Part shown: positions 7,199 through 9,642 of the stretch, piece after piece
How the letters are laid out: the number at the start of each line of letters is the position of its first letter
Position numbering within the stretch: the stretch's first letter is position 1
Source: Gillisia hiemivivida
Lineage (GTDB): Bacteria > Bacteroidota > Bacteroidia > Flavobacteriales > Flavobacteriaceae
Length of the DNA stretch: 64,000 nt
Assembly (NCBI RefSeq): GCF_007997295.1
Contig: NZ_VORY01000013.1
Location: 1-64,000, forward strand
Direction: 5' to 3'
Notes under the pieces: generated by a model
Seen by the model: the letters and a program-made list of their open reading frames with translations, nothing else
Databases searched by the model: none
What the model was told of the DNA's origin: nothing
Translations under genes and position numbers: made by a program

Positions 7199-7780
7199 CT
7201 AACCGTGAATACTTTGAGTTTTGCTTAAGCTTTTCATGACTTCGGCTTCAAATTCTAGTAAATCATTCCATTTTTGATCGACTTCTTTTCGGTCTCCATA
7301 TTGTCTGGCAAAGTTGAGAAAAAGTGTATAGTGATTAGCCTCACTTACCATTAAGTTCCTGTAAAAATCCCTTAACTCTTCTTCTTGTAATTTTTCTGAA
7401 AGCAATCTAAAACGTTCGCAACTTCTAGCTTCAATAAGGGCAGCTATCAATAATCTGTGTACCAACTGCGTACCACGAGAACCTCCTTTAGGGAAGAATT
7501 TGAGCAACTGAAGCACATATTCATCCTTACGATCCCGCCCCATTATATAGCCTCTTTTCAGCAATTTATCATGAACCATTTTAAAATGGCCCATCTCTTC
7601 TCTTGCTAAAGCTGTCATTTCTGAAACCAGATCGGAATATTCAGGAAAGGAAACGATTAGGGAGATTGCCGTAGAGGCAGCTTTTTGTTCGCAATAAGCA
7701 TGATCTGTTAGAATTTCTTCTAAATTTTTCTCTGCAATAGAAGCCCAACGTGGGTCTGTAGGTAGTTTTAAGCCAAGCAT
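7199..7780 (-). CDS. miaE: tRNA-(ms2io6A)-hydroxylase
   Basis: A ferritin-like di-iron monooxygenase that hydroxylates 2-methylthio-N6-isopentenyl-adenosine at tRNA position 37. The 193 residues start MLGLKLPTDPRWASIAEKNLEEILTDHAYCEQKAAS, characteristic of MiaE, and carry the iron-ligand helices with EEMGHFKMVH and EARSCERF, then EANHYTLF. The start lies 2 bases downstream of the dnaX stop, so the two are probably one transcript. Oxygen-dependent modification implies an aerobic lifestyle. The gene's 3' end abuts an interspersed repeat. Confidence 0.93.
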   Translation of the reverse strand: MLGLKLPTDPRWASIAEKNLEEILTDHAYCEQKAASTAISLIVSFPEYSDLVSEMTALAREEMGHFKMVHDKLLKRGYIMGRDRKDEYVLQLLKFFPKGGSRGTQLVHRLLIAALIEARSCERFRLLSEKLQEEELRDFYRNLMVSEANHYTLFLNFARQYGDRKEVDQKWNDLLEFEAEVMKSLSKTQSIHG

Positions 7781-7782
7781 AA

Positions 7783-9642
7783 TTATATATCTAGATCAAA
7801 AGTTTTACGGAGTTTCTCCAATAACGGATTTTGCTCTTTCAACTTATTAAATTTTTCCATGTCTGTAAAGGCATACTTCTTTGCTACCTGTTCGTTCACC
7901 TGTATGTCCAGGGTGATCAAAGTGTTTTGAAGTTTCTTTTTTAGAAAGCTCATCAAAGGATGAGTATGTCTTTCTAATTCATTTTTCATAGTATCCGCCG
8001 GTAACTCTATAGAAACCACCTTATCGGTTAGCTTTGGCATATCTGTTTCCATAATAGAAGCCAGAATTTTTTCACCTCTATGCTTTAGTCTTTGTATATA
8101 TTCATCCCAGGCGGCATGTAATTGCGTTTCATTTATGGCTTCGTCCAGTACCTCAGCTGTAACAACCTTTTCTCCATGCTTTTTGGCAAGGATCTCTTTT
8201 TTCTGCTTGATACTTTTTATAGATAGACCCGAAACTTTTTTAGGCATTGCCTGTTCAGAATTTGGCTTCACTTCTGTTGAAGATCGATCTTCCTGAGTTT
8301 TTTCCTTTGTGCTTGGTGTCTCTGGAGTAATTTGATTAGATGGAGTATCTAGTTCTAGTTCTTCTTTAGATTCACTGGTAGGTTTAGGAGTATCTATTGA
8401 TTTTGTATGCTCTTTCTTTTCTTCCGAAGGAATAATTGCAGAGGCTGTTGTGGTTTCTGCATTTTCAGAAAATTCATTTTCGGTGATCACTTTTTTTGCT
8501 TCCGTAGGAATTGAAACAGAAGCAACTTTCGCATCCTTAAAATGCTCTGGAGCGATTATGAATGGTTCAGACTTTTTTTTTTCTCCATCAAAATTGATAG
8601 AGGCAAGCTGCATAAGGCATAATTCAACTAATAACCTCTGATTTCGACTTGCTTTGTATTTGAGATCACAATCGTTAGCCATTTCTATTCCCTTCAATAA
8701 AAAGGAATGGGAAGTTTGCTGAGATTGTTTAAAATAATTGGCCTTAGCAGTTTCTCCAACTTCAAGAAGATCTATAGTTTTTTGATCCTTACAAACCATG
8801 AGGTCTCTAAAATGGGATGCTATTCCAGAAATAAAATGATGTCCATCAAATCCATTAGACAAAATAGTATTGAAATCTACCAGCAACTGTGGAATATCAT
8901 TATCCAATATTAACTGGGTAATATTTAGATAGGTTTCATAATCTAATACATTTAAATTCTCTGTAACTGCTTGTCTGGTTAATTTAGCGCCGCTATAACT
9001 AACTACTCTATCATAAATAGAAAGGGCATCTCGCATTGCGCCATCGGCTTTTTGAGCAATAATGTGCAAAGCTTCTTCTTCAGCTTCAATTCCTTGCTGC
9101 TCTGCGATGTATCCCAAATATTTTCTAGCATCGGTAACCGTGATCCGTTTAAAGTCGAATATTTGGCAACGAGAAAGAATGGTTGGAATTATTTTATGTT
9201 TCTCTGTAGTAGCAAGAATGAAAATGGCATGTTTTGGTGGTTCTTCCAAAGTCTTCAAAAAAGCATTGAAAGCAGAGGTAGATAACATATGTACCTCATC
9301 TATAATATACACCTTGTATTTTCCAACCTGTGGTGGGATCCGAACCTGATCTATCAGATTCCGAATATCATCTACAGAGTTATTGGAAGCTGCATCGAGT
9401 TCAAAAATATTGAAAGCAAAATCCTCATCTGGTTGTTGGGTGCCATCATGATTGATCATTTTGGCAAGTATACGCGCACAAGTAGTTTTTCCTACTCCTC
9501 GTGGCCCGGTAAAAAGTAATGCTTGTGCTAAGTGATTATGTTCTATAGCATTTAAAAGCGTGTTAGTAATGGCTTGCTGTCCCACAACGTCTTTAAAAGT
9601 TTGTGGGCGATATTTACGTGCCGATACAACAAAATGCTCCAT
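7783..9642 (-). CDS. dnaX: DNA polymerase III subunit gamma/tau
   Basis: The clamp-loader ATPase that links the replicative polymerases to the sliding-clamp loader. The 619 residues have Walker A GPRGVGKT (46-53), Walker B VYIIDEVHML (111-120), the sensor TTEKHKIIPTILSRCQ, and a collar domain ending near residue 350. A low-complexity, charged linker (about 354-490) and a C-terminal tau-type domain follow. The zinc-binding cysteines found between Walker A and B in E. coli DnaX are absent (the loop reads MINHDGTQQPDEDFAFNIFELDAAS). A run of ten A starts at codon 354, at the collar/linker boundary, and may allow a shortened gamma form. It shares an operon with miaE. Confidence 0.96.
   Translation of the reverse strand: MEHFVVSARKYRPQTFKDVVGQQAITNTLLNAIEHNHLAQALLFTGPRGVGKTTCARILAKMINHDGTQQPDEDFAFNIFELDAASNNSVDDIRNLIDQVRIPPQVGKYKVYIIDEVHMLSTSAFNAFLKTLEEPPKHAIFILATTEKHKIIPTILSRCQIFDFKRITVTDARKYLGYIAEQQGIEAEEEALHIIAQKADGAMRDALSIYDRVVSYSGAKLTRQAVTENLNVLDYETYLNITQLILDNDIPQLLVDFNTILSNGFDGHHFISGIASHFRDLMVCKDQKTIDLLEVGETAKANYFKQSQQTSHSFLLKGIEMANDCDLKYKASRNQRLLVELCLMQLASINFDGEKKKSEPFIIAPEHFKDAKVASVSIPTEAKKVITENEFSENAETTTASAIIPSEEKKEHTKSIDTPKPTSESKEELELDTPSNQITPETPSTKEKTQEDRSSTEVKPNSEQAMPKKVSGLSIKSIKQKKEILAKKHGEKVVTAEVLDEAINETQLHAAWDEYIQRLKHRGEKILASIMETDMPKLTDKVVSIELPADTMKNELERHTHPLMSFLKKKLQNTLITLDIQVNEQVAKKYAFTDMEKFNKLKEQNPLLEKLRKTFDLDI
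8573..8582 (-). promoter_or_regulatory. A10 homopolymer in dnaX, candidate slippage site for a gamma-like product
   Basis: On the coding strand codons 354-357 read GAA AAA AAA AAG, an uninterrupted run of ten A. With one extra A the next codons are GTC TGA, giving a 358-residue product. With one fewer A the frame reads AGT CTG AAC CAT TCA TAA, giving 361 residues. Either product would end just after the collar domain. Thermus thermophilus makes its gamma subunit by transcriptional slippage on an A-run in dnaX. That slippage occurs here is inference. Confidence 0.5.

Follow-up and report, generated by a model that had tools for sequence, protein, structure and literature searches.

A conserved run of ten adenines behind the DnaX collar as a probable slip site in Gillisia hiemivivida and other Bacteroidota

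The window that we analysed, a stretch of 64,000 nucleotides from Gillisia hiemivivida (assembly GCF_007997295.1, contig NZ_VORY01000013.1, positions 1 to 64,000), carries a dnaX gene, for DNA polymerase III subunit gamma/tau, whose features are collected in Table 1. Its product matches the Pfam clamp-loader domains PF13177, AAA and DNAX_ATPase_lid, as well as the NCBIfam equivalog NF011531 over residues 1-619 (701.7 bits against a cut-off of 685). The TIGR02397 model dnaX_nterm covers residues 6-346, corresponding to model positions 3-354 of 355, and residues 4-266 can be aligned with the solved chains of E. coli gamma and tau. At 9418-9453 on the minus strand, an alignment gap marks the place after the P-loop where the window DnaX is without the cysteine-cluster stretch (CGVCDNC) of E. 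coli gamma/tau. A miaE-like gene (7199-7780, minus strand; PF06175, E 2.7e-44) starts two bases past the dnaX stop and may be co-transcribed with dnaX.

Table 1. Features of dnaX in the analysed window
Feature	Position	Strand	Basis
dnaX, DNA polymerase III subunit gamma/tau; unslipped product tau, 619 aa	7783..9642	minus	ORF
AAA+ and collar, residues 1-346, common to tau and gamma	8605..9642	minus	TIGR02397
A10 putative slip site in codons 354-357, GAA AAA AAA AAG	8573..8582	minus	sequence
A_AAA_AAG, the E. coli dnaX -1 heptamer, in the correct frame at the 3' end of A10	8572..8578	minus	sequence
TGA met with +1A or a -1 ribosomal shift; predicted gamma of 358 aa	8567..8569	minus	sequence
TAA met with -1A or two extra A; predicted gamma of 361 aa	8556..8558	minus	sequence
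Linker and tau-specific C-terminus, residues 358-619, not in gamma	7786..8571	minus	sequence

Because dnaX lies on the minus strand, the T10 that the plus strand shows at 8573-8582 becomes A10 in the dnaX mRNA. An earlier note on this DNA had pointed to this run, to the four codons that make it up and to a stop in each shifted frame, and all of these stand in the sequence. Read without a slip, the gene encodes 619 residues with a predicted mass of 70.1 kDa. One additional A leads through ...EKKKV to TGA one codon on (358 residues, predicted 40.5 kDa), and one A fewer leads through ...EKKSLNHS to TAA after five residues (361 residues, predicted 40.8 kDa), a stop that arises from the synonymous ATA spelling of an isoleucine. 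The note had also placed the run at the boundary of collar and linker, in agreement with a collar model that ends at residue 346, eight residues ahead of codon 354. Since TIGR02397 ends there, the predicted products of 358 and 361 residues would correspond to the AAA+ domain plus the collar.

From a single genome, it is not clear that A10 in dnaX exceeds chance; across genomes, it is clear. In the 3.73-Mb genome of this species, ten or more A in a row occur at 14 distinct sites (16 overlapping matches). Among the 13 sites other than dnaX, two are interior to long ORFs, encoding a GH3 glycosidase and a family 2 glycosyltransferase (L400 2017-2026 and L408 2078-2087), and are possible further slip sites. 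Two more come within ten codons of the end of an open stretch; all the others are located ahead of a start or in stretches that stay open for no more than 64 codons. When genes were resampled with fixed amino acids and their own codon usage, about 44% contained a run of at least nine A, a figure drawn from a null that took in only in-frame genes already carrying the run.

We therefore give the comparison across genomes the greater weight. Genes for DnaX were drawn from the genus, family, order, class and phylum, together with 80 named GTDB loci; 378 loci were examined and nine duplicates dropped, leaving 369 distinct loci, with some loci found by the phylum search contained in the family and order sets. 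There was no match at threshold in G114, G152, G178, G254 and four of the 21 genomes of genus g19, and three further genomes were not counted: G258 gave a partial match and no locus, and G293 and G298 gave matches whose loci were not taken. The run was scored as the longest stretch of A in an interval that opens 20 codons ahead of the end of the collar alignment and closes 100 codons past it. By this measure, a run of A9-A13 lies behind the collar in 319 of the 369 loci, with exactly A10 in 248. Runs of at least nine A are present in 15/16 loci of the genus, 21/23 of the order set, 34/41 of the class set, 71/80 of the named set and 57/87 from other classes. Within Flavobacteriaceae, where the earlier note had proposed to look for the run and had regarded its loss in close relatives as evidence against slippage, 121 of 122 loci carry A9-A13. 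The distance from the end of the collar alignment to the start of the run has a median of 2 codons, is at most 30 codons in 309/319 loci and reaches 90 at the maximum. All three codon phases are used, any base may follow the run, and the run is kept in 35 of the 59 loci whose fetched stretch has a GC content of 0.5 or more.

Close relatives preserve the stops as well as the run. In each of the 15 genus loci with A10, the +1A frame meets a stop one codon on and the -1A frame 4-5 codons on; one of these loci, L010, is without a long frame after the run. The sixteenth, L019 (genome G011), has A8 followed by an in-frame TGA, and additional breaks within its dnaX suggest indel errors of assembly, although it could also be a true split gene. 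At the other end of the comparison, 50 of the 369 loci are without a run of nine, including the Bacteroidaceae-type named loci L060, L098, L099 and L111; 41 of the 50 stay open in one frame for at least 169 codons past the collar.

Synonymous sites in and behind the run indicate that the nucleotide sequence itself is under selection. Across the three columns of the run, one of Glu and two of Lys, in all 138 genus and family loci, taken with no filter for the run, 390 of 390 Glu or Lys codons end in A, whereas in 21 other columns, where K or E is conserved in 80% or more of the loci, A-ending codons average 72% for K and 70% for E, and no column exceeds 87%. Such counts are not independent given shared ancestry, but the comparison columns share that ancestry too and nevertheless vary. 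Elsewhere in the same set of loci, 70 of 136 Lys-Lys pairs are spelled AAAAAA. An earlier silent-site count of 298/298 was discarded as circular, its 100 loci having been chosen for A10 in that phase. The isoleucine that creates the -1A stop is a second such site: among 100 in-frame A10 loci of the genus and family, 68 had the motif [FYH]I[IV][PAS], and in 68/68 this isoleucine is ATA, against 698 of 3023 Ile codons in the same loci, a background that includes the 68 codons themselves.

The shifted frames are closed far more often than elsewhere in the same genes. Of the 223 in-frame genes, 193 (86.5%) close both within 6 codons, counted from the codon boundary as for the controls, and 191 do so when the count starts at the run end; at control positions the figure is 16%. 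Within 10 codons, the corresponding values are 95% and 32%. When the frames are taken singly and set against control positions in the AAA+/collar part, a stop within 6 codons ends the +1A frame in 219/223 loci (control 47%) and the -1A frame in 194/223 (control 35%).

In other loci, the gene is split at the run. The 319 loci with a run divide into 223 in-frame ones, 81 that encode tau only with +1A (or -2), nine that do so only with -1A (or +2), five cut by the fetched stretch and one without a long frame. Tau thus requires a shift at the run in 90 of the 319 loci, and there gamma is the predicted default product and tau the one that would need the slip. A10 prevails in either arrangement (176/223 in-frame and 69/90 split loci). 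A tblastn query with window residues 466-619, from the tau C-terminus, matched all 25 split loci of the family in the shifted frame that was predicted. Beyond the family, 28 of 65 split loci gave a match, each time in the frame expected; the 37 without one include 21 of other classes, and in those classes the same query matched none of the 36 in-frame loci. For a single in-frame named locus, the match lay in a different frame.

Split and in-frame forms occur side by side. Named examples of the former come from Flavobacterium species, Chryseobacterium, Halpernia, a Myroides MAG, Flavicella and Aquimarina sp. RZ0, and of the latter from Aquimarina mytili, an uncultured Maribacter, Flagellimonas, Aequorivita, Pedobacter and Hymenobacter. 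The two Aquimarina genes both have A10 and differ in the sequence downstream of it. Loci that need -1A are rare, and one of the nine, L047, has A9 against A10 in its Flavobacterium relatives, which may be a sequence error. A FastTree tree of the DnaX N-terminal part requires at least 48 changes between in-frame and split forms, and at least 16 between run and no run when loci with 7 or 8 A are left out; the use of a one-gene tree and assembly errors may inflate these counts.

These observations make slippage at the dnaX run, whether by polymerase or by ribosome, very probable. Given the conserved run and stops, the selection at synonymous sites and the relatives in which tau needs a shift at the same place, it is likely that A10 is a programmed slip site with RNA polymerase as its main agent. 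In this mechanism, RNA polymerase would slip on A10, so that part of the dnaX mRNA would carry 11 or 9 (or 8, 12 and so on) A. Transcripts of templated length would yield tau, and those with one A more or fewer would run into the early TGA or TAA and yield gamma, which would retain the AAA+ ATPase and collar and lack the linker and the tau C-terminus. We infer that the rate of slipping is high enough to matter in this species, that polymerase rather than ribosome is the agent, and that gamma has a function within the clamp loader. The production of gamma by slippage, which the earlier note had suggested for this flavobacterium, thus gains support from the phylum-wide run, the closed frames, the silent sites and the split genes.

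The polymerase is favored because the length of the run stays near ten where A7 already makes the heptamer, because every codon phase and any next base occur, because shifts in both directions are needed and both frames are closed, and because a downstream hairpin is absent as a rule. In 120 in-frame loci of the genus, family and order, the region downstream of the run folds with a mean z of -0.28, five loci falling below -2, and the 70 nt downstream of the run in the window contain no stem-loop stimulator (MFE -8.5, z +0.5). According to the available portion of PMC3711429, mixed shift directions among orthologues are a mark of transcriptional realignment, to which the A10 dnaX genes found there are attributed. 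The corresponding portion of PMC1088944 states that a large share of genomes avoid runs of nine in their coding regions, and that of PMC6260861 reports no slippage by E. coli polymerase on fewer than eight A.

That the ribosome slips instead, either by programmed -1 frameshifting at A_AAA_AAG or by unstimulated sliding along the run until it meets the TGA, is in our view unlikely, even though several features of the window fit it. The heptamer lies in frame and the -1 stop follows one codon on, as in E. coli, and a pattern search of the genome found two genes for tRNA-Lys(UUU) and none for tRNA-Lys(CUU); the CUU pattern does match one gene in G279, and a divergent tRNA could escape it. The heptamer is also more frequent in loci split in the +1A direction (38/81) than in in-frame loci (52/223; Fisher p 1e-4, kinship ignored), and a locus of the same order, discussed below, looks E. 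coli-like. Ribosomes are able to slide on A-runs, as stated in the available part of PMC4363877, and such sliding would likewise use more than one frame. Nevertheless, most in-frame loci do without the heptamer, seven A would be enough to form it, and a -1 shift explains neither the closure of the -1A frame nor the nine loci that need the -1A direction. Stimulators are not general either. A Shine-Dalgarno-like motif precedes the run in every one of the 14 genus loci tested and in 87 of 120 from the family, yet 135 of 313 loci overall are without it. In E. coli, the Shine-Dalgarno sequence is spaced about 10 nt ahead of the heptamer; in the window, GGAG immediately precedes the run and is thus closer. 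Frameshifting at prfB is low in Flavobacterium johnsoniae (cited in PMC12421855, of which a part was available), which argues weakly against shifting stimulated by such a motif. Shine-Dalgarno-stimulated shifting and a general downstream stem-loop were both sought and found unsupported, with exceptions such as L235 (z -6.7). This locus (genome G145, same order) is an A11 split dnaX in which the 70 nt downstream of the run fold stably (MFE -20.2), perhaps as a stimulator. Beyond what the earlier note had proposed, then, the analysis adds the phylum-wide reach of the run, gamma as the predicted default in 90/319 loci, and a heptamer and tRNA-Lys(UUU) that leave room for a ribosomal share alongside polymerase slippage.

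It is improbable that the run is incidental, that is, that an E-K-K-K linker happens to be written in A-rich codons and any slipping is noise, with gamma having no role. The resampled genes and the two interior A10 runs described above would be in keeping with such an origin, but the uniform A-ending codons in loci unfiltered for the run, the invariant ATA, closure of both frames far above control and 90 split loci in which tau needs a shift all speak against it. Still less credible is phase variation, in which changes of run length in the DNA would turn tau on and off in a population. Long A-runs are mutable and L019 has A8, but this gene has the other breaks expected of an indel-prone assembly, and the length is almost fixed (248 of 319 exactly 10). 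The clamp loader is moreover essential, which counts against a tau that is switched on and off. Finally, the idea that gamma, if made, is cut from tau as in Caulobacter (PMC5009743, in the part available) and that the run serves something else is hardly tenable, for it leaves the shifted-frame stops and the split genes unexplained, although the 50 loci without a run of nine may need another route.

Some lineages appear to use other devices. In G287 (L393), a member of the same order, A_AAA_AAG is followed by TAG, tau can be read on in the -1 frame over 210 codons, and a hairpin of 14 pairs begins six bases past the heptamer (MFE -26.5, z -6.2); the run scored for this locus is a second, downstream A8, and its shift site is the upstream heptamer. 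L377 and L380, of the same family code (f61), have in-frame A10, and in L393 heptamer and hairpin have apparently replaced the A-run. Genus g19, which belongs to the family of the window, gave a dnaX locus in 17 of 21 genomes (L409-L425). In all 17, a zero-frame TAA or TAG follows AAA or AAG (G-GAA-AAG or similar), tau lies in the -1 frame and a FIIPxxHF-like linker stands directly behind the shift, with neither a long A-run at the shift site nor a consistent hairpin. A candidate pairing of the purine tract with ATTCCC was spotted in g19 by eye. L394 comes from G285, also of this order, whose genome measures about 0.3 Mb. Its DnaX frame stops after 346 residues, at the collar, and a T11, not an A-run, lies just past the stop; this is possibly the gamma-only DnaX of a reduced genome.

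We lean towards a broader reading, in which A10 of dnaX acts in this phylum as a switch indifferent to frame and maintained across deep divergence. The slippery run of fixed length and the closed frames would be under selection, the default product would have flipped repeatedly between tau and gamma, and the device itself would have been swapped in some lineages, so that the making of both DnaX forms, rather than the mechanism or the default, would be what is conserved. The need for gamma has long been debated, mostly from E. coli, and our data would imply a short DnaX form in most of the loci examined across a large phylum. Both arrangements exist in close relatives within Aquimarina, so that the need for two forms of DnaX can be put directly to the test. 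In practical terms, split dnaX genes such as those of the Flavobacterium and Chryseobacterium loci should not be annotated as broken.

Transcriptional slippage in dnaX of Thermus thermophilus was reportedly described by Larsen et al. in 2000, and it is treated in the available portions of PMC1088944, PMC3711429 and PMC5009743. As in Thermus, tau of the window occupies one open frame of 619 residues through a run of at least nine A, stops lie near the run in both other frames, and the truncated product would be the AAA+ domain plus collar, the gamma that Thermus makes from slipped mRNA. Unlike in Thermus, the run is A10 rather than A9, slippage in the window is a prediction from sequence, and only the UUU isoacceptor was found where Thermus has two tRNA-Lys (PMC5009743, accessible part). 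Antonov et al. (2013) listed two-ORF dnaX genes, 17 from 12 genera and nine of them with 10 A's, and the portion of their paper available (PMC3711429) names three members, Chlorobi with 9, 8 and 7 A's; Bacteroidota may be among the nine. These genes share with the window an A-run in dnaX, and their arrangement, as far as that portion describes it, is that of our 90 split loci, while the window gene is in-frame and has no zero-frame stop at the run. A literature search, with subscription journals mostly outside its scope, yielded no description that we recognised of the run across Bacteroidota or of the in-frame form there. Thermus-type slippage and two-ORF dnaX with A10 are known, and the phylum-wide breadth, the flipping of the default and the swapping of devices look new. 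With E. coli dnaX, the window shares the identically framed heptamer A_AAA_AAG, a -1 stop one codon later and tRNA-Lys(UUU) as the only isoacceptor found, but it differs from E. coli in its A10, in the closure of both shifted frames and in being without the downstream stem-loop.
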